Shown here: positions 47,171 through 64,000 of the stretch, in pieces
How positions within the stretch are numbered: the first letter of the stretch is position 1
How the letters are laid out: every line of letters starts with the position of its first letter
Assembly (NCBI RefSeq): GCF_000226095.1
Contig: NC_016473.1
Location: 806,001 to 870,000, forward strand
From: Thermothelomyces thermophilus ATCC 42464
Lineage: Eukaryota; Ascomycota; Sordariomycetes; Sordariales; Chaetomiaceae
Direction: 5' to 3'
DNA length: 64,000 nucleotides
Notes under the pieces: generated by a model
Databases searched by the model: none
What the model saw: only the letters and a program-made list of their open reading frames with translations
What the model was told of the DNA's origin: nothing
Program-made: the position numbers and the translations under genes

Positions 47171-48372
47171 AGCACCTCTAGAACCAAACCTTTGTCTAGT
47201 TAGATAAGGAAGAGCTTCGGCTTAAAAAGTCCAAGGCGTCCGAGTATTCGCAGTCATAGTAGGCAAGTCCGACCATCTAGACGGTAACGACGATAAGGGC
47301 AAAGGTAGCGATAGCGATATCCCTCTAGATAGGTATAGAAGAGTCTACTTACGTGGAAAAAAATATCTATAACTTATAAAAGAAAGAAGAACTATATCCT
47401 ATTACTCTAATCTATTAGAGTAAAACGAGTATTAAAAGTTATCTATTATCTTTACCTATCTATCTAGCACCCCTGGATAGGTAACCCCTATTTATACCTA
47501 TTATATATAATAAAGCTCTATAGAACCGAAAAAACAAAACTATACTTTATGCCCCTCTAGTTATATTAAGAACTTCTAGCCCTAGTCTATACTTCCCCTT
47601 TAAATTTGCCTTAAGGCTCTTACTAGCGAATTCGGACCTAAAACTTTACTTACGTTCCTTATAATACCTAGCCTACTTAGCTCTATTATTACCTTTAGGT
47701 AAGGGTCGTTTCTTAGACGCCTAATGCCTTTACCAGGCTTTTACTTTAGTATCTAGTGTATCCTAGCCTATGAACTATAGTAGGTACTTAGGAACTAGCT
47801 TAAGATCTTTAGGCCTTAAACGTTCGAATAGTAGGGGCTAAGTCTATTTGGTAGGATTATCGTTAGGACGATGCTAATAAGCCTGTCCTTTCTTAGCGGC
47901 TTAGGTTAAGCGTATCTCCTATATCCATACCAGCTTACTTGGCTTTGTCTTAGTCTAACTAGGCGGCTATTATATTATTAAAGGCACCTATTTTACTAGT
48001 TACTACTATTATAACCTCAAAGGTTTTCTTTATCCTTCTATAGCTATAAGTTACTCCTCTACTTATTTTACTATACGCTAGTAAATAGCTATCTTTAGCT
48101 TATAAGGGTACTTAAGTACCTATTAGAGTAGCTAAGGCGGCCTAAGTCCCTTAGGCACCTTATTAAGAAACTGCTAGATAGTATTATCTAGGAGGACCTA
48201 GTAATCCTTTTTTATAACTAGTTACTCCTTTATTAGTAGTAGATTGTCTTCTCTTTCCTCTATCTAGATAGAGATAACTGATTTTGCCTATCCTAGCTAT
48301 AGCTATAGTTATAAAACCGGTAGCCTATAAAGTAGCTTATCTATAGGCTACCTAGGTAGTTAATAGAGATAG
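47171..48372. other. AT-rich RIP debris, identity unresolved
   Basis: TA-rich sequence with very frequent CTA/TAG, few CpA dinucleotides and no long open frame. A short less-altered patch lies at about 47210-47320. It probably belongs to the older repeat into which the Gypsy element at 48373 is inserted, because sequence of the same style resumes at 55967. Confidence 0.6.
48368..48372. repeat. target-site duplication GATAG, left copy
   Basis: GATAG directly precedes the TG of the left LTR and recurs right after the CA of the right LTR. A five-base duplication is normal for Ty3/Gypsy integration. Confidence 0.88.
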
Positions 48373-48820
48373 TGTCACGAATAAGCACATGGGCGGCCTG
48401 GCAGGCTGCAGCCAGGACGCGGGACATTCCGACAGCCAATCACTTGACGGACCAATCAGAAGATTATCACCGCCAAGACTAAGGTCTTCACTGGTGATAA
48501 TAACATATCACCGTCGACAACGCAGAATCACGAAGTGAAAGGAGAAGTGGTACTGGTGATAACTATTGAAGAAGGACAGACAATTATGTATATATAGCTA
48601 GCTAGTCACTCGTTATGGTGGACTCTGGGAGTTCACCAGTGGTAACAATCACAATCACAGTACTCATACCAAGCATTGCTGATTACTGTGAGAGACAACT
48701 CTAAGTGTTGTTGTGAACCCTTTGGCTTCACCGAATCCCTCAGACGACCCGCCTGCTTGTCCCGCTCAATCCACCTCCGTCTGGACCCTTTCAGAAGAAG
48801 TCTGAGTTGGGTTCGTCACA
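48373..48820 (+). repeat. 5' LTR of Gypsy element
   Basis: 448 bp, TG...CA ends. It carries GTATATATAG at about 48588-48597 as a likely TATA box and several copies of the (ACT)GGTGATAA motif in both orientations between 48468 and 48562. Confidence 0.93.
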
Positions 48821-48885: not shown

Positions 48886-51800
48886 CATGGCTACCGACGT
48901 CACGGCCGAACAGCTGCTCACTTAGCTTGGTCAACTCCAGCAGCGGGTTTAGGAGTTGGACTAGAGAGACAAGGCTGCTTAAGCTCGAATCAAGGAACTC
49001 GAGAACCGCGAAAAGTACTCGCAGAAGTTGGTTAACGAGGCCTACGCCAAAATCGAGGCACTCGAGGGCGCCAAAGTGAAGCGCATCAAGATCGAACCAC
49101 CTAGCAAATACGGAGGAACCAAGGAGGATCTCGCAGGATTCCTAACAAACCTCCGATCCTACTTCCGGCTTAATGACGACAAGTTTCCGGATGACAAAGC
49201 CAAAGTCCTCTACGTAGCCACGAGACTAGAGGGCAAGGCACTTAGATGGTTCGAGCCTACGTGGAACGACTATCTCACCGAGGAAGATAAAGACGACCGA
49301 GACGCGTTCACGCAGGCAGTCTTTCGGTCCTACGACCGTTTCGAAGAAGAGCTTCGGAAGGTTTTTGGTGACAAAGACGAGAAGATTCATGCGTAAGAAA
49401 GACTCGCCAATCTCCGACAGACCAAGTCAGCAGCCTCCTACGCCGTACAATTTAGATAGGACATGCTCAAGTCTCAGCTTAACGACGAGGCGTTGATGCA
49501 ATTGTTCTATAATGGCTTGAAGGAAAAGGTCAAGGACGAGCTGTATAAGTACGATCGGCCTGAGACTCTAGATGAATACATCGCGCAGGCCATCAGAATC
49601 GATGATCGACTCTACGCACGAGAGCAGTAGAAACGAGGTCGAATGAACGGAACCACGGTTAAGGCCAACGACAAGAAAAAGCGAGCGTACGTCAGTACTT
49701 CGTACGGGACGTACCCTGGAGCTATAGATGTGGACGTAGCGTAGAAGCAAGACCAGAAGAAGACGACCAAAGACAAGTCCAATGTTACCTGCTACAACTA
49801 CAGAAAGAAAGGGCACTACAAGCGAGAATGCCGAAGCCCGAAGAAAGGATGGAAACTAACCCCGGGAAAGGAAATTGCGGCCATCGACGAAACCACTAAG
49901 GACGTCATCGAAGTAGCGGCCACGAGCTACGAAGACAAGGGCAGTGACACGGACAGTCTCAGACACGACGGCAACGGTGAAGACGAACAAGCACCGAACT
50001 CCGAACTGGTCACTGTGGATCCAGAGACAGGTCTTGCCGAATGGGACATGGCAGGAGAATATGCACCGCCAGCTTCGATTCTCCCGGCCTTAGGACAGTG
50101 GGGTTTTACGGTCACGTAGAGGCGGGATAGATCGTGGACAACCGACACCCAAGGAATCGAAAGACCTGGACCTGATGCTCTATTCCTCTAGGAACGAATC
50201 GAATGGTATCGTAACGAAGTTTTCCGACTTAATACGGAACTGCGCGAACGGGATGAACGCTTGACTCGACTTGCCTAGCAGAGCGATGAGATGAAGGACG
50301 AAATGAGGGAACTCCGACGTATCGTGGAAACTATCAAAGGAGAATAGCCCGTGATATATAATGGGCCCGATAGCTATACCGAGCATCTTGACGGCTAGCA
50401 ACTTAGCAACGACGTGCGGAACCTAGAATACTAGTTTATGTGAGCGAACCGCGGAAAAGACGAACGTACGTGGGAAAGCTACTAGAAGAAACACTCCTAC
50501 CTTAGCATTAGAGTACCTACGGTCTACGTACAATGGGAAGGATTCGGGAAAGAATTCCAATACCTTCTAGGCGACGCTACGCGACTGCACCCGCGACATA
50601 AGGCACATGTATAAGTGCCCTGGTTCTAGTGTGTGGTATACGAATGCCGATATCACTTCCGCGACAAATTCGAAAACAATCACTAGCCGACCTGACAGGA
50701 AAACAGGGACGGAGACTTGTGCCCTGTGGAATAGGTCTACGATATAGGAAACAGAGCGGCCGAATTGCTCTAGAAGATCGAAACTCGTAATCTAGAAGGC
50801 ATCACGGTAGTTCCAAAACGAGTCTGGCCTAGGCACTGCGGAACCGGACGAGACATATGGGACTCATGCTGGAGCAACGATTGCCTCTATCACGCGGACG
50901 AAAAGAAATTGCGAATTCGGGAGCTTTAGACGAAGCTATGGCACGCACGACGGAAAGCAGAACGGACCCAATGGTAGGAAGCCGCAAGCACTTAATGGCT
51001 CACGGAAATGAGCACGATTAACGAAGCCGCTATTAGCCGAACAACCGAAGAGGTCAGTACTGACCTGGGAAACGGGTCAGGGCCCTTCGAGGGGCCCGGA
51101 AACCATTAACGCCCGCGTAGTGGCGAGTGGTAGCGTAGTACAGGAGGAACTGGCGCAAGAGACCACTATATCGAGACCTCCCGGCAGGAACATGGGAAAT
51201 CGCCGTAATCTTTGGACGACGGCGGCAAGACAAGCGATTGTGGATAACAGCACAGTAGAAACAGCACGAAATGCTCGCACTAGTGGACAGTGGAGCAGAG
51301 ATGAACCTGATTTCGCCGACGCTTGTAAATCAGCTGCGGATACCCTGGAGAATGAAGCGGAAGCATGGCATAGTCAAAGGGCCATTTCCGACGCAATAGG
51401 TACGTAGAGAGACCGAACCGATTGACATCACTGTAGTAGGAAAGACCATAGCAGTCGTATTTAGCATTATGGACATGGGCAACGATAAAGACATGATATT
51501 GGGGTTACCATGGCATGAAGATTACGACCCGGACATTAGCTGGAAGAATGGTGGCCACCTGCGACCCCGAACGGAGTCGTATTCGACCAGCGAGATGGGG
51601 AGCGCGCAAGGATCGCGAGCGGACGATGCTCAGGGGAAGGCATGTCCTACGGATCCACCGCAAGAGACGGACAGTGGCAGGCAGACCACTACGGACTCTG
51701 GAAGAGGCGGCATAACGACATCGATATCGCGACAAGAGGAACAAGCTGAATCGCCGATAGCTGTTCTCTCCGTTGACGAATGTGGAGCACTGCAATTGGA

Positions 51801-54790
51801 GCAGTGGGTTGAGACAGGAGAAATCGCTAGTATCGCCATGGACGGAACCAAGTTCGCATACTACCAGAAAACCGAGAGACGAGACAAGACTGGGGAAGTA
51901 CTAAAGGAATACGAAGGACACCTAGCATTCGAACTAAAGCATCTGGAAGGATTACCAGAACACGGCCTATAGGATCACGAGATCAAGCTCAAGGAAGGAG
52001 CACGACTGAAGTTCTTCAAGATTTACCACACGAGCCAGACGCAGAACGAAGAACTTAAGCGATATTTGGAGGAGAACCTTCGAAGAGGACATATCCGCCT
52101 ATCGACATCGCCAGCAGGCTACCTAATCCTGTTTATGCCTAAGAAAGACGGAAAGCTACGGTTATGTGTCGACTATTGGCAACTTAACGAACAGACCGTG
52201 AAAAACCGATACCCGTTACCGCTAATCTTACGGCTCCGAGATTAGTTGGCAGGAGCCCAATATTTCACGCGTCTTGACTTGCCATCGGCCTACAACTATA
52301 TACGGATCAAAGAAGGCGACGAGTGGAAAACGGCCTTTAGGACACCTTATAGCCACTATAAGTACCTCGTCATGCCATTTGGACTTACGAACGCGCCGGC
52401 AACGTTCCAAGCCCTGATTGATCAAGCTATCCGACCCTTTCTCGACAAATTTGCGGTATGTTATCTCGACGACATACTCATCTTCTCCAAGACGATGGAC
52501 GAACACCGGAAGCACGTGAAAGCAGTGCTGGACGCGCTGCACGCGTACAAGCTATCAGTTAACAAGGAAAAGAGCGAATTCCATGTCAGGAAAACGGTGT
52601 TTTTGGGATACGAGATATCCCCGGGACAAATCCGGATGGAACCTTCAAAGGTTGAAGCCATCAAGAATTGGCCACGACCGACGTCAGTCACGGAAGTACG
52701 AAGTTTCATCGGATTTGCGAACTTCTACCGGATGTTCATCAGGAACTTTGGAGCGATCGCACGACCTTTGCACGAACTCACCAAGAAGAATGCTGAATTC
52801 CAATAGGAAGAACAACACGAGCAAGCATTCACGCAGATCCGCAACGCCATTACTGAAGACCTAGTACTGGTACTGCTAGACCCTAAGAAGTCATTTGAGG
52901 TGGAAACGGACGCTTTAGACTACGCTATCGGAGGACAATTGGGACAACGAGACGAACAAGGGAAGCTATATCCTGTAGCCTTCTTTTCAAAGAAGCTCGA
53001 CGGACCACGTCTCAATTACCCGATCTACGACAAGGAACTGCTTGCGATTGTCGAAGCTTTCAAGGAATGGCGACCATACCTCAGTGGTACGATTGAACCG
53101 GTATAAGTGTATATGGATCACAAGAATTTGCGATACTTTACGACGACGAAGGAACTCAACGGACGACAAATACGATGGGCAGAATTCCTCGCGGAATTCA
53201 ACTTCGAGATCCGCTACAAGAAGGGCAAAGAAAACGCACGAGCAGACATCTTAAGCCGACGAACGGATCACACGGAAGGACGAACGGGAACGACACCACC
53301 GTTGTTCAAGGAACGAACAGACGGAACGCTGCATCACGAAACGCAGACACCCGTGGAAGATGATCCACTTGACTCGTTCCTAGAATGCTGCGCAATCTTT
53401 CGAGAGGAAAGGATTAACGAGGCATAGTATCAAGTAGCACCCGGACTAGTGGTACCTGACGAAGTGGAAGAGAAAGATGGGAAACTCTGGTACCGAGGCA
53501 AGGCGTACATCCACGACAAAGATCAACAGCTGCGGATGATTCGAGAACTCCACGAGTCAAAACTCGGAGGACACAAAGGAGTCACGAAGACTATCGCACA
53601 AGTCAAGAAACACTACGACTTTCCACAGTTAACGGCACGGGTCAAGGAAGTCGTACGGAACTACGACATCTGCAATCGAAGCAAAACGGCACGACACAAG
53701 CCGTATAGGCTACTTCAGCCACTACCAACAGCTGACAAACCATGGAGTTCAGTTACGATGGACTTCATTACGAAGCTGCCAGAATCCAAGGACACGGCCA
53801 CAGGAGTAATCTACGATAGTATTCTTACTATAGTAGATCGCCTGACTAAGTAGGCATATTTCTTTCCCTACAAGGAGTCCTGGACAGCAGAACAGTTAGC
53901 AGACGTGATCTATCGGCAAGTTACATCAGTGCATGCTTGGCCGCAAGAATGGATCACCGACAGAGACACCAAGTTCGCATCGAAGTTCTGGCAAGCGTTA
54001 ATGCAACGATTAGGCGTTAACAGCAAACTGTCAACGGCATATCACCCACAGACCGACGGACAAACAGAGCGACTAAACCAAATCGTCAAACAGTATCTCC
54101 GTTCTTACGTCAACTACCAGCAAAACGACTGGGTCATGCTGTTGCCAACAGCACAACTCGCCTACAACACGACGCCAACAGAAACGACCAAAGTCACACC
54201 GTTCTTTGCGAACTACGGATACGAAGCAGACCTTAGGCAAGGACCAGAGGTCACAGTGCCAAGAGCAGCAGTCAAAGTAGAACAGATGCACGTACTGCAC
54301 GAGAAGCTTAAGAAGGAACTCGAGTTTGTTAAAACCAGAATGAAGAACTACTACGACAAACACAGGCTCGAGGGACCTTGCCTAGAGAGGGGAGACAAAG
54401 TCTACCTAATCGCACGAAACTTGCGAACCAAACGACCAAGCACGAAGCTAGACTTTAAGAAGGTCGGACCCTTCGTTATCAAAGAACGAATTTTGACATC
54501 TAACTACTGACTATCGTTACCGTCATCTATGCGACTACGGACAGATGTTTTTCATATTTCACTTCTCGAACCAGCACCAAAAAACGCCAAGGTTGCTACA
54601 CACATCGAAGCAGAGGACGAAGAGGAAGAATGGGACGTCGAAGAAATTCTGGATTCACGTATCATCAATGGGGAACTGTAGTACCTGGTCAAATGGCTTG
54701 ATTTTGGACCAGAGGACAACTCATAGGAACTAGCCAAGAATTTGAACTGCCCTGAGAAACTGGAACAGTTCTACCGGTAGAATCCGGATC
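48886..54790 (+). pseudogene. gag-pol remnant of Gypsy element
   Basis: Gag-like sequence occupies about 48886-49640 (for example SKYGGTKEDLAGFLTNLRSYF near 49105-49170), with a CCHC-type zinc knuckle region near 49789-49836. Next comes an unassigned stretch of about 1.4 kb. The protease DSGAEMNLI lies near 51285-51312, reverse transcriptase at about 52030-52800 with the catalytic YLDDILIFS near 52459-52488, RNase H at about 52880-53260, integrase at about 53500-54400 with its H2C2 zinc region and DDE core (TMDFITKLPES near 53755), and a chromodomain-like segment at about 54600-54790. The remnant is broken many times and cannot be functional as it stands. Confidence 0.88.
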
Positions 54791-54849
54791 GACCAAAGGA
54801 AAACCCGGGACAGAACCAAAGACGGCGCCCCAGTCGATAGCATCGACGG

Positions 54850-55391
54850 CATCATTAATCTATAACGAGGGCATAGCAGGCGTCTCTTGCTGCTCAACCT
54901 CCTCCAACTCGTCTAAGGTCGATAGACCACGCGCCACCATGTCGGTACCTTTCTCCACTAAAAACTCCTTCTGCTGACGAAGACGCCGGAGCCGCGTAAG
55001 CTTTTCGGACAACTCGCGCTAGGCTTCTTCCAGACGGCGTTAAGATTCATCCAGCTCAAGTTCGGCACGACGTTCAGCATCCTTAATACGACGCTGCTCC
55101 TAGAGAATGCGATCCACTAGAACAAACATCAGGAATCACATTCAGAGGAAAAAAAAAAAAAAAAAGAAAAGGAGACGTGCTTATAGGAAGAAAGCGGTAT
55201 GCTAGAGCCATCGCAAAAACGACCTCGACGAACGTAGGCTTCGCAACGCTTGTACGCGCGATCATTTTGCAAACGAGGCCTTGCGACGCGCACCAAGAGC
55301 AAGGCATAACGACAAAACCGTTCTCAGCGATGTTCTGAGCAAGGGAAGCACGGTAACGTGCAGAATGCGACTTCCGTTTCTCTATCGGCAT
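54850..55391 (-). pseudogene. antisense accessory gene remnant inside Gypsy element
   Basis: Between the chromodomain and the 3' LTR, the minus strand carries a coding remnant starting MPIEKRKSHSARYRAS at 55391. It includes GFVVMPCSWC followed by further cysteine-bearing sequence. A pyrimidine-rich tract near 55150-55175 ending in an AG looks like the end of an intron. Beyond it, the reading is rich in Arg, Glu and Leu, as in a coiled coil. The remnant is broken. The related element at 60700 has a counterpart in the same place and orientation relative to gag-pol, which is the main reason to treat it as a real part of this family. Function is unknown. The cysteines may bind zinc (inference). 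Confidence 0.65.
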
Positions 55392-55518
55392 TTTGTCAAC
55401 ATGGCGACCACGACGCAGAAACAGGGAGAATGCAGTACTCACAAGCGAAGGGTTGTTGGCGCTATTTGAAACGGCCTAAGAGGGCTTTCGGGTCGAAAGC
55501 CTTGAAGGAGGGGTATCG

Positions 55519-55966
55519 TGTCACGAATAAGCATATGGGCGGCCTGGCAGGCTGCAGCCAGGACGCGGGACATTCCGACAGCTAATCACTTGACGGACCA
55601 ATCAGAAGATTATCACCGCCAAGACTAAGGTCTTCACTAGTGATAATAACATGTCACCGTCGACAACGCAGAATCACGAAGTGAAAGGAGAAGTGGTACT
55701 GGTGATAACTATTGAAGAAGGACAGACAATTGTGTATATATAGCTAGCTAGTCACTCGTTATGGTGGACTCTGGGAGTTCACCAGTGGTAACAATCACAA
55801 TCACAGTACTCATACCAAGCATTGCTGATTACTGTGAGAGACAACTCTAAGTGTTGTTGTGAACCCTTTGGCTTCACCGAATCCCTCAGACGACCCGCCT
55901 GCTTGTCCCGCTCAATCCACCTCCGTCTGGACCCTTTTAGAAGAAGTCTGAGTTGGGTTCGTCACA
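55519..55966 (+). repeat. 3' LTR of Gypsy element
   Basis: 448 bp, the same ends as the left LTR. A purine-rich GAAGGAGGGGTAT just before it is the likely polypurine tract. Confidence 0.93.
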
Positions 55967-55971
55967 GATAG
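55967..55971. repeat. target-site duplication GATAG, right copy
   Basis: Matches 48368-48372 exactly and bounds the Gypsy insertion on its right. Confidence 0.88.
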
Positions 55972-60699: not shown

Positions 60700-61117
60700 T
60701 GTGACAAACCCAACTCAGACTTCTTCTGAAAGGGTTCAGACGAAGGTAAATTGAGCGGGACAAGCAGGCAGGTCGTCTGAGGGATTCGGTGAAGCCAAAG
60801 GGTTCACAACAACACTAGAGTTGTCTCTTACAGTAATCAGCAATGCTCGGTATGAGTACTGTGATTGTGATTGTTACCACTGGTGAACTCCCAGAGTCCA
60901 CCGTAACGAGTGACTATCTACATGTATATATAATCTTAGTGATCACTCCTGATCACGGTGATCGTGAGTGATTGTATGGTGGTGATCACCCTAATTGCTG
61001 GTGAGCGTAGTGATTACTGTGCTTCCTATGTTGTAATTGGTCCTTTCGTTCCTTCGGCTTGATTGGCCCGTTTGTGCTGGTAGCCTAGGCAGTATCTGTA
61101 TATATATTTCCATGACA
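60700..61117 (-). repeat. 3' LTR of second Gypsy relative
   Basis: About 418 bp. It is closely similar to the 448-bp LTR over the part next to 60700 (to about 60925) but clearly different over 60925-61110, where GTGATCAC-type repeats replace the GGTGATAA motifs. The left limit could be shifted by two bases because of a TGTGTG run. Confidence 0.82.
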
Positions 61118-61239
61118 CGATGCCCTCCCTCCAAGGCTTTTGACCCGAAAGCCCTCTTTTAGGCCGTTTTAAATAGCGCTAACACCCCTTGCGTTCCTTA
61201 TATGTGTTTTTCTCCTTAGCCTTTGTTATACTATTAATC

Positions 61240-61720
61240 ATGCCGTCTAACGCACACAGGTCCCTAGCGTCTATTTGTTATGAGCATTTGGCTTAGTTTA
61301 TTTCCGATCACGGGTTCGTAGTAATAGCGTGTTCCCATTATATAGAGTACAACCAAGTATATAAGATAATTGAAAAATCTTGTCGCTACAAGGCTTACGT
61401 ATATCAGGGTCGTGCTTATAATGGTTCTAGCGTTCTAGTTTCTTTTTATAAGTTCCTGTTTTCTTACAAGGGCACATCTCTAATCGTAACGTAGTAGATC
61501 GTATTATACGTAAGTAATATCGTTTAAAGGCTAAAGAGAAAGAGGCCGAAGCCTTGCTACAAGAATATTAATATAAAGCTTCTGAGGCGTTGGCCTGTCT
61601 GACTCGGGTTTATAAATAACGAGAGTTCCTAGTAGAGAAGGGGGTAGATATGGTTATACGGGGTTTGTCAAATCTAGACGAATTAGAGGCGGTAGAATAG
61701 CAGGAATCGGGGGCTGTCAT
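61240..61720 (+). pseudogene. antisense accessory gene remnant, second copy
   Basis: Starts MPSNAHRS at 61240 on the plus strand, opposite to this element's gag-pol. It contains GFVV followed by a cysteine-serine pair at the same spacing as in the remnant at 55391. It ends in Glu/Arg/Leu-rich sequence (for example EKGVDMVIRGLSNLDELEA near 61636-61692). It is broken and RIP-altered. The shared start, shared motif and shared position support a common ancestral gene in this element family. Confidence 0.6.
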
Positions 61721-61849
61721 GTAACTTAATGGTGGCGTCGATGTTATTAACTAGGACGCTATTTTCAGTTCTATCCTAGGTTTACCTTTGGCTAATCCGG
61801 GTTCTGTCGATAGAACTGTTCTAGTTTCTTAAGGTAGTTTAAGTTCTTG

Positions 61850-64000
61850 ACTAGTTCCTATAAGTTGTCTTCTAGTCTAAAATTAAGCTATTTAACTAGG
61901 TACTATAGTTCTCTATTAATAATATGTAAATCTAGAATTTCTTTGACGTCCTATTCTTCTTCCTTATCTTCTGCTTCAATGTGTATAGCAACCTTAGCAT
62001 TTTTCGGTGCTAGTTCGAGGAGTGAAATATAAAAAATATCTATCTATAGTCGTATAGATGATGGTAACAATAGTCGGTAGTTAGATGTCGAAATTCGTTC
62101 TTTAATAACGAAGGGTCTGACCTTCTTAAAGTCTAGCTTCGTGCTTAGTCGTTTAGTTTACAGGTTTCGTATAATTAGGTAGACTTTGTCTCCCCTCTCT
62201 AGGCAAGGTCCCTCGAGCCTATATTTGTTATAATAGTTCTTTATTCTAGTCCTGACAAACTCGAGTTCCTTTTTAAGCTTCTTATATAGTACGTGTATCT
62301 ATTCTACTTTGACTGCTACTCTTGGCACTATAACCTCTAGTCCTTACCTAAGGTCTGCTTTATATCTGTAGTTCGCGAAGAACGGTGTAACTTTGGTCGT
62401 TTCTGTTGGCGTCGTATTGTAAGCAAGTTGTACTATTGGCAATAGTATAACCTAGTCGTCTTGCTAGTAGTTGATATAAGAGTAGAGGTATTGCTTAATA
62501 ACTTGGTTTAGTCGCTCCGTTTATCTATTGGTCTGTAGGTAATATGCTGTTGATAGCTTACTATTGATGCCTAATCGTCGTATTAACGCTTGCTAGAACT
62601 TCGATATAAACTTGGTGTCTCTGTTAGTGATCTATTCTTGCGGCTAAGTATACACTAATGTAACTTGCTAATAGATTACGTCTGCTAGCTATTTAGCTGT
62701 CTAGGACTCCTTATAGGGAAAGAAGTATACCTATTTAGTTAGGCGATCTACTATAGTAAGAATACTATCGTAGATTACTCCTATAGCCGTGTCCTTAGAT
62801 TCTAGTAGCTTCGTAATAAAGTCTATCGTAACTAAACTCTATAGTTTGTCAGCTATTAGCAGTAGCTAAAGTAGCCTATACGGCTTGTATTATACCGTTT
62901 TGCTTTAATTGCAGATGTCGTAGCTCCGTATAACTTCTTTAACTTATATTATTAACTATAGAAAGTCGTAGTATCTCTTGATTTATACAACGGTCTTTGT
63001 AACTCCCTTATATCCTCCGAGTTTTGACTTGTGGAGTTCTCGAATCATTCATAGCTATTGGTCTTTATTATGGATATACACTTTGCCTCGGTACTAGAGT
63101 TTCCTATCTTTCTCTTCTACTCCATTAGGTACTACTGGTCTAGGTGCTACTTAATACTATGCCTCGTTGATCCTTTCCTCTCGAAAGATTACGTAGCATT
63201 CTAGGAATAAGTCAAGTAGATTATCTTCTATAGGTATCTACGTTTCGTAATATAGCGTTCTGTCTATTCGTTCTTTGAACAATAGTAGTATTATTTCCGT
63301 TCGTCCTTCTATGTGATCCGTTCGTCAGCTTAAGATATCCGCTTGTACGTTCTCTTTACCCTTCTTATAACGGATCTCGAAGTTAAATTCCGCAAGGAAT
63401 TCTGCCTATTATATTTGTTGTCCGTTAAGTTCCTTCGTTATCATGAAGTATCGTAGGTTCTTGTAATCTATATACACTTGTACCGGTTTAATTGTACTAC
63501 TAAGGTATAGTCACTATTCCTTAAAAGCTTTAACAATCGCAAGTAGTTCCTTATTATAGATCAGATAATTGAGACATAGTCTATCAAGCTTCTTTAAAAA
63601 GAAGGCTATAGGATATAGCTTCCCTTGTTCGTCTTGTTATCCTAATTGTCCTCCGATGGCGTAGTCTGAAGCGTCCGTTTCTACCTCGAATGGCTTCTTA
63701 GGGTCTGGTAGTACTAGTACTAGATCTTTAGTAATAGTATTATAAATCTTTATAAATGCTTACTTATATCGCTCTTCCCATTAGAATTTAGCGTTCTTCC
63801 TAGTAAGTTTATATAAAGGTCGTATAATCGCTCTAAAGTTCCTAATGAATATCTGGTAGAAGTTCGTAAATCTGATAAAACTTCGTACTTCTATAACTAA
63901 TGTCAGTTATAGCTAATTCTTAATAGCTTTAACCTTTGAAGGTTCTATCTAGATTTATCCTAGGGATATTTCATATCCTAGAAACACCGTTTTCCTAATG
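61850..64000 (-). pseudogene. pol remnant of second Gypsy relative
   Basis: On the minus strand: chromodomain-like sequence at about 61850-62040, integrase at about 62090-63120, RNase H at about 63300-63720 and the C-terminal part of reverse transcriptase to the window end. Block order and wording match the first element. It is broken many times. Confidence 0.8.

Follow-up and report, generated by a model that had tools for sequence, protein, structure and literature searches.

An antisense gene and the U3 region as one diverged cassette on a common Ty3/Gypsy chromovirus backbone in Thermothelomyces thermophilus

Introduction

Reports of antisense genes in LTR retrotransposons go back a long time, but have assigned these genes no known function. 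The AT-rich right part of the window (the whole 64,000-nt stretch of Thermothelomyces thermophilus DNA analyzed here) contains two related Ty3/Gypsy elements, A and B, each with a broken reading frame opposite to its gag-pol, and the question raised by this locus is whether these frames are remnants of a genuine gene and, if so, what that gene does for the element. A preliminary description of the window had singled out the frame in part because Ty3/Gypsy elements were thought to have normally no gene at this place, a premise that brtn of Boty and several plant elements do not support, as these are described in the sources cited (PMC7264820, PMC8365987). Here we show that the antisense gene and the U3 region of these elements diverge jointly on an otherwise nearly identical element, and we consider what this could mean for the role of the encoded protein. 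The search space was the T. thermophilus genome (38,744,216 bases, 7 contigs).

Results

Two related chromoviruses in the window

Element A has gag, reverse transcriptase, integrase and chromodomain between two LTRs, as in Ty3/Gypsy chromoviruses. Its LTRs are unlike at 6 of 448 positions, and the element is flanked by a 5-bp target duplication, GATAG (48368-48372 and 55967-55971). In Pfam searches the copy in the window matched RVT_1 (111.5 bits), and a sister copy, L002, matched Integrase_H2C2 (58.8 bits) and Chromo (50.2 bits), with rve at 31.7 bits, just below the cut-off of 32.6. The features of both elements are collected in Table 1. Between A (L002) and B, the last 1491 nt of pol show 238 C>T or G>A changes against 27 transitions in the reverse direction and only 3 transversions, a spectrum such as RIP (repeat-induced point mutation) of B would leave. 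Because of this RIP-like decay, transversions were used for all comparisons with decayed copies.

Table 1. Coordinates of the two elements and their antisense genes in the window.
Feature	Position	Strand	Remarks
Element A, 5' LTR	48373..48820	+	448 nt
Element A, gag-pol (gag, RT, integrase, chromodomain)	48887..54858	+	Broken by stops; pol stop 54856-54858
Element A, antisense gene, exon 2	54737..55116	-	Charged helical tail; four in-frame TAG in window copy; from alignment
Element A, antisense gene, intron	55117..55184	-	Donor decayed to AT; poly-T run; CTGAT; CTAG
Element A, antisense gene, exon 1	55185..55391	-	Six-cysteine cluster; one nucleotide short in window copy
Element A, conserved palindromic block GGGCTTTCGGGTCGAAAGCCTTG	55482..55504	+	Adjoins polypurine tract, between antisense gene and LTR
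Element A, 3' LTR	55519..55966	+	448 nt
Element A, 3' LTR, U3	55519..55751	+	Type A, with ATCAC/GTGAT sites
Element A, 3' LTR, R-U5	55752..55966	+	Nearly identical across types
Element B, 3' LTR	60700..61117	-	Type B U3
Element B, palindromic block	61132..61154	-	One mismatch to the element A block
Element B, antisense gene, exon 1	61240..61447	+	Decayed
Element B, antisense gene, intron	61448..61494	+	Donor decayed to AT
Element B, antisense gene, exon 2	61495..61808	+	Decayed; end by alignment, ~61808
Element B, pol, 3' part	61726..64000	-	Continues beyond window end

The antisense gene of element A has two exons

A minus-strand coding remnant had been proposed at 54850-55391. It is indeed present, with the first base of the ATG of its frame (MPIEKRKSHSARYRAS...GFVVMPCSWC) at 55391, and it extends further than was described, since a second exon reaches 54737 and thereby overlaps the 3' end of pol tail-to-tail on the opposite strand; in L002, for example, the pol stop lies at 1492-1494 and the antisense frame continues to 1373. 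The gene is an aORF-3R, lying antisense to gag-pol and between pol and the 3' LTR. Both exons are open in 18 of the 30 family-A copies fetched (L002-L017, L019 and L023), although these 30 copies had been picked by their antisense region and the 18 open ones are near-identical and thus not independent; the remaining 12 had stops or donor changes or were unread by the script anchors. Open copies have an exon 1 of 69 codons and an exon 2 that is open for 126 codons, and the predicted product in L002 has 196 aa. By comparison, the window copy is one nucleotide shorter in exon 1, has AT rather than GT at the donor and carries four TAG in exon 2. A search of the genome with the exon 1 protein gave 18 places with 100% identity among the best 150 of 519 candidates.

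A GT...AG intron is found in 17 of the 18 open copies (the script anchor missed L013), and in all 17 it starts with GTAAGC, contains a CTGAT site and ends with CTAG. Its length ranges from 66 to 80 nt in these copies, varying through the T run and not in steps of three. The poly-T run (55149-55165 in the window) is strongly variable between near-identical A copies, apparently by slippage. All three sense frames opposite the antisense gene hold stops in the open A copies. A conserved protein-coding antisense gene with a predicted intron is well supported by comparison of copies and types, and the Ty3/Gypsy chromovirus in the window carries this genuine two-exon gene in decayed form.

Four types of the antisense gene

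The reverse-oriented element at 60700 had been said to carry an antisense relative, and a homologous frame does run from 61240 to ~61808, likewise opposite to its own gag-pol and likewise broken. Twelve further B copies have the same two-exon gene, every one decayed. Alignment of the A and B exons shows gaps of 21 nt (seven residues) and 6 nt, both multiples of three, and the introns differ in sequence and, by 22 nt, in length. Additional family members were located through the 23-mer beside the polypurine tract, which had 465 matches in the genome at three or fewer mismatches (control, 0). Of the 56 exact matches, 15 loci could not be placed by eye on the A list or the B list, and all of these were fetched, and among the one-mismatch matches listed, 20 of the 21 outside the A and B lists were fetched. 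These 35 pattern-chosen loci comprised 5 of type A, 9 of type B, 11 of a type C, 9 of a type D and one (L100) that had lost most of the gene. In total, 73 copies were examined (30 A, the B copy of the window, the 35 pattern-chosen loci and 7 others), and the antisense type was assignable in all except L100. The antisense frame that the preliminary description expected in other family members was thus found in types B, C and D.

Of three type C copies checked, L078 is open in both exons, whereas exon 2 is interrupted by a stop in L074 and in L082. The type C intron has the same place and phase as that of A, with the donor GTCCGT, and intron position is equal in types A, B and C. The type B and type D copies seen were decayed only. 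Further types were sought in the 35 pattern-chosen loci and in 7 outliers of the type C search, and all typable copies were A-D, which leaves room for rarer types. L092 and L100 were considered as new types and rejected, both being deletion derivatives.

Some individual copies show rearrangement or variation. In L086 (G000:C6:2064669-2065990), which has a type A U3, an internal deletion has brought the beginning of the antisense gene up against the region for reverse transcriptase, and the copy is possibly a non-autonomous derivative. L117 (G000:C1:4607400-4608700) belongs to type B, but its U3 is shorter and lacks several of the ATCAC sites; at its pol end, 12-mer sharing is 1.0 with the type C reference and 0.97 with the B reference. 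L095/L097 represent a B variant.

Purifying selection on the antisense protein

Transversions between A and B in the exons fall on codon positions 1, 2 and 3 in the ratio 30:19:44 (chi-square P 0.006). Synonymous transversions numbered 35, compared with 17.8 expected at random placement, a value reached in 0 of 5000 simulations, and a transversion-based proxy of dN/dS was 0.39. The comparison of A with C (L082 exon 1 joined to L078 exon 2) covered 154 aligned codons that do not overlap pol; 79 residues (51%) were identical, and the differences by codon position were 62:51:101, with transversions at 44:26:68. Here dN was 0.51 and dS was not computable (NG86); synonymous transversions numbered 46 against 26.8 expected, again reached in 0 of 5000 simulations. 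Since the open A copies are nearly identical, selection was inferred between types and not within A, and pol was uninformative as a control for the codon-position test, having 3 transversions between A and B. By these comparisons (A versus B and A versus C), the antisense exons are deeply diverged between types and yet evidently under purifying selection.

This synonymous-biased divergence leads us to reject a chance open frame or a coding echo of the sense strand, which we regard as hardly credible. The near-identity and non-independence of the 18 open A copies would be in keeping with such a frame, but the opposite sense frames hold stops and the protein was retained in the diverged types while the DNA and the introns changed; the sense-strand explanation, which the preliminary description had named as one to be checked, is rejected with it. 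Local hypermutation of the diverged block is likewise improbable, since it takes time for synonymous change to reach saturation while the protein stays conserved.

A zinc-cluster-like product

The cysteine-bearing N-terminus and charged helical tail noticed earlier are supported by the open copies. The predicted type A product has a cysteine cluster with the spacing CX2CX6CX8CX2CX6C, followed by the charged helical tail of exon 2. The Zn2Cys6 family (PF00172) has the spacing CX2CX6CX5-12CX2CX6-8C. All six cysteines are present in A, C and the D copy L118, and at most five of six were seen in B (L114). The Pfam Zn_clus model matched type A with 13.6 bits (cut-off 21), covering half of the motif, and gave no match for type C or the B copy L068; few basic residues lie between Cys2 and Cys3 in type A. 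We therefore describe the predicted product as zinc-cluster-like and do not assign it to the Zn2Cys6 family. About half of the residues in the exon 2 pieces tested are charged, and these pieces have a weakly marked heptad pattern (58 and 65 of 2000 shuffles). PHROGs, Pfam and PDB sequences gave no convincing family for the product, exon 2 having weak matches to PDB sequences, several of them to coiled-coil proteins. No relatives were found for exon 1 in viral_contigs and genome_contigs, or for an A+B exon 1 alignment in viral_contigs, both of which are non-fungal collections.

The antisense gene and U3 diverge together

The number of transversions between A and B per 60-nt block stays at 0-1 in pol as far as 54800, is 2 in the block that contains the pol stop, rises to 3-19 over 54861-55460, falls to 0 at 55461-55520, rises again to 5-18 in U3 (55521-55760) and returns to 0 over 55761-55940. 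The antisense gene and U3 thus diverge on either side of a conserved block of ~60 nt. The profile of A versus C repeats this shape at both ends of the element; at its 5' end, U3 is unlike and R-U5-gag-pol is alike. Over ~2.8 kb of R-U5-gag-pol, the six pairs of types (one copy per type) differ by 9-14 transversions, or 0.32-0.50%. Similarly, the sharing of 12-mers in a purine/pyrimidine alphabet (reference copies L002 for A, the window for B, L082 for C and L083 for D) is 0.14-0.21 between types in the antisense region and 0.73-0.88 at the pol end; in U3 it is 0.11-0.15 between A and the others and 0.28-0.44 among B, C and D. Within the conserved block lies a palindrome, GGCTTTCG-GGT-CGAAAGCC, that has no transversions between A and B despite the diverged flanks; it may serve plus-strand priming, form an RNA hairpin or be a site common to the antisense promoters.

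The U3 type equals the antisense type in 68 of the 68 copies scorable for both. Five of the 73 copies were left out (L084, L089, L094 and L096, where the R start was not found, and L100, with most of the gene deleted and a type D U3), and L086 and L092 were counted although truncated (sharing 0.43 and 0.54). Since the antisense gene and U3 adjoin, this concordance is partly expected without any function, and the informative signal is the sharp steps at the pol end and at the R start, not the concordance as such. In the T. thermophilus genome, the antisense gene and U3 form a single cassette of ancient divergence on a backbone that the types share, and there are four or more such cassettes (A-D) on one nearly identical R-U5-gag-pol backbone.

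In reverse transcription, the 3' end of the RNA is the template for U3 and its 5' end that for U5, and a template switch near the pol end would consequently yield the cassette pattern. We infer that recombination between co-packaged RNAs during reverse transcription is the simplest cause. Tracing of cassette exchange in the pol end found one informative transversion column among 52 copies, too few for the purpose, and the case for recombination therefore rests on the contrast in divergence between cassette and backbone.

Repeated ATCAC/GTGAT sites in U3

One U3 of each type contains 5 (A, L002), 8 (B, L090), 6 (C, L082) and 4 (D, L085) ATCAC/GTGAT sites, compared with 0.8-0.9 expected from dinucleotide shuffles; these counts were reached in 0, 0, 0 and 2 of 300 shuffles, respectively. 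Among 5-mers present at least 4 times, to which the enrichment test was limited, ATCAC ranks first in A and C and is tied for first in B, and in D CACGA and GATCA rank higher. The site is preceded by T in 3 of 5 cases in A (TATCAC) and by G in 6 of 8 in B, 6 of 6 in C and 4 of 4 in D (GATCAC). Most sites sit between CCAAT and TATATA motifs where both are intact, and element A has 22-26 of them per kb of U3, compared with 9 per kb (2 sites) in R-U5 and 2.2 per kb in gag-pol.

The six sites of the type C U3 form three inverted pairs, GATCAC-N10-GTGATC, with a start-to-start distance of exactly 34 nt and unlike spacers; two or more equally spaced inverted pairs occurred in 0 of 20000 shuffles of this U3. 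Type A has two pairs, with 23 and 24 nt between sites, and type D has one, with 11 nt; no regular array was found in the type B U3. The type C pattern has 191 matches in the genome and the reversed pattern 1, which is mostly a reflection of LTR copy number. Such pairs also occur to the right of the window, at 870.8 kb and at 877.8-877.9 kb, ~7 kb apart (G000:C2:870460-877915, the first part of which is L076), an arrangement that suggests a type C element adjoining, or inserted into, element B.

Discussion

The unusual feature of these elements, beyond the antisense gene itself, is that gene and U3 diverge jointly on an otherwise nearly identical element, which suggests that each element type has its own matched regulator. 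Our preferred reading is that the window holds a decayed two-exon gene whose zinc-cluster-like product acted on the U3 of its own type, gene and U3 being one cassette, and we give this reading a probability of about 0.5. The antisense transcript would start in or beside the 3' LTR, from which antisense transcription is plausible, and would encode the cysteine-cluster protein; this would dimerize, possibly via its charged helical tail, and the dimer would bind the ATCAC/GTGAT half-sites, mostly between the CCAAT and TATA boxes, of the U3 of its own type. Binding to U3 is a putative function, suggested by architecture, co-divergence and half-sites. The bound protein would then regulate or de-silence the LTR of its own type, resulting in types without cross-reaction. 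Whether it would activate, protect from silencing or repress is not readable from sequence, and we lean towards a positive role. Against this reading, ATCAC could be bound by a host factor, the paired arrangement is regular in type C only, and in type D another 5-mer ranks above ATCAC. The sub-threshold or absent Zn_clus match, the weak heptad pattern, the exclusively decayed copies of types B and D and the concordance to be expected of neighbors also count against it.

A different possibility, which we consider clearly less probable, is that the gene encodes a genuine accessory protein with no action on U3, taking part for example in RNA binding, the assembly of particles, import into the nucleus or counter-defense in general, and that U3 diversified separately under host transcription factors or escape from silencing, so that the linkage reflects only neighborhood at the RNA 3' end. 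Adjacency alone predicts concordance, a host factor could use the ATCAC sites, the U3 subfamilies of crapaud have been ascribed to promoter function or chance in the published account (PMC10787394), and the plant antisense ORFs have no known function as summarized in PMC7264820. This explanation is disfavored, however, by the divergence of gene and U3 on both sides of the ~60-nt conserved block, by the complete lack of mixed cassettes among the 68 scorable copies and by the pairing of the type C half-sites.

Two other explanations concern the gene itself. The antisense RNA could be what matters, pairing as dsRNA with the sense transcript at its 3' end and feeding silencing; the gene is convergent with, and overlaps, the end of pol, and such a role has been proposed for plant elements (PMC7264820), but synonymous-biased divergence, in-frame exon gaps and cysteines kept across four types argue for a selected protein, making this improbable. 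Even less probable is that the gene was captured from the host and hitch-hikes, bringing the element no benefit. Its cysteine spacing does resemble that of fungal regulators, and the search for a host homologue covered the best 150 places only, but purifying selection is seen in several diverged types and the gene has the same place and intron position in A, B and C. Taken together with the open exons in A, the GT...AG introns and the in-frame gaps, these observations bear out the earlier proposal of a real, probably spliced gene.

Antisense genes without a known function and the unexplained U3 subfamilies of Podospora, which lie on a homogenized internal region (PMC10787394), are two puzzles that joint divergence, paired half-sites and a neighboring gene for a cysteine-cluster protein combine into one testable hypothesis. 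More generally, LTR retrotransposons of filamentous fungi might carry exchangeable specificity cassettes, each comprising an antisense gene for a small, DNA-binding, zinc-cluster-like dimer and the U3 operator array read by it. Recombination in the course of reverse transcription would move them between backbones, and selection for non-cross-reacting types would retain several ancient ones within a genome. We hold this extension tentatively, as somewhat short of an even chance.

The Zn2Cys6 regulators of Gal4 type (PF00172) are similar to the antisense product in cluster spacing, in a helical segment after the cluster and in inverted half-sites as the candidate target. Half-sites of the Gal4 type are CGG; the candidate ones here are ATCAC, and the antisense product is sub-threshold in Pfam. 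The antisense ORFs of plant elements and brtn of Boty are the nearest known genes in position and orientation. The latter is found in Botrytis cinerea and Sclerotinia sclerotiorum and, like the gene described here, is an extra antisense gene between pol and the 3' LTR of a fungal Gypsy chromodomain element; in the passages available, no U3 linkage, zinc-cluster motif or set of types is mentioned, and the two are compared here by description only (PMC7264820, PMC8365987, PMC4227169). Grande gene23, RIRE2 and Retand TRP28 in plants have the same position and orientation in most copies, and a nuclear or DNA-binding role is suspected for such ORFs, but they belong to other protein families as described, and the portions consulted mention no co-divergence with U3 (PMC7264820, PMC11963269).

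With regard to U3, the crapaud element of Podospora anserina likewise has U3 subfamilies, the cause of which its authors left open, although its R-U5 is conserved and its internal region does not track the LTR subfamilies; unlike the present elements, its figure legend gives gag and pol ORFs only, and "antisense" occurs 0 times in the text as available (PMC10787394). The word also occurs 0 times in the main text of a survey of fungal LTR elements (PMC3248453), and we found no report of a U3-linked antisense gene in the open-licence literature on extra, antisense or zinc-cluster genes of fungal LTR elements. If correct, the cassette reading would also account for U3 subfamilies in other fungal elements, such as crapaud.

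Judged by analogy, the nearest functional parallel would seem to be VANC of the VANDAL elements of Arabidopsis. VANDALs are not LTR retrotransposons. As in the accounts of VANC, where an element-encoded protein has relatives with different targets, those targets being repeated and fast-diverging noncoding motifs, the elements described here have repeated U3 motifs that diverge with the gene, although binding was demonstrated for VANC and is inferred here (PMC5735166, PMC10398659). If our preferred reading is true, these cassettes would be a source of new sequence-specific DNA-binding proteins and the equivalent, among retroelements, of VANC or of immunity types defined by regulator and operator.
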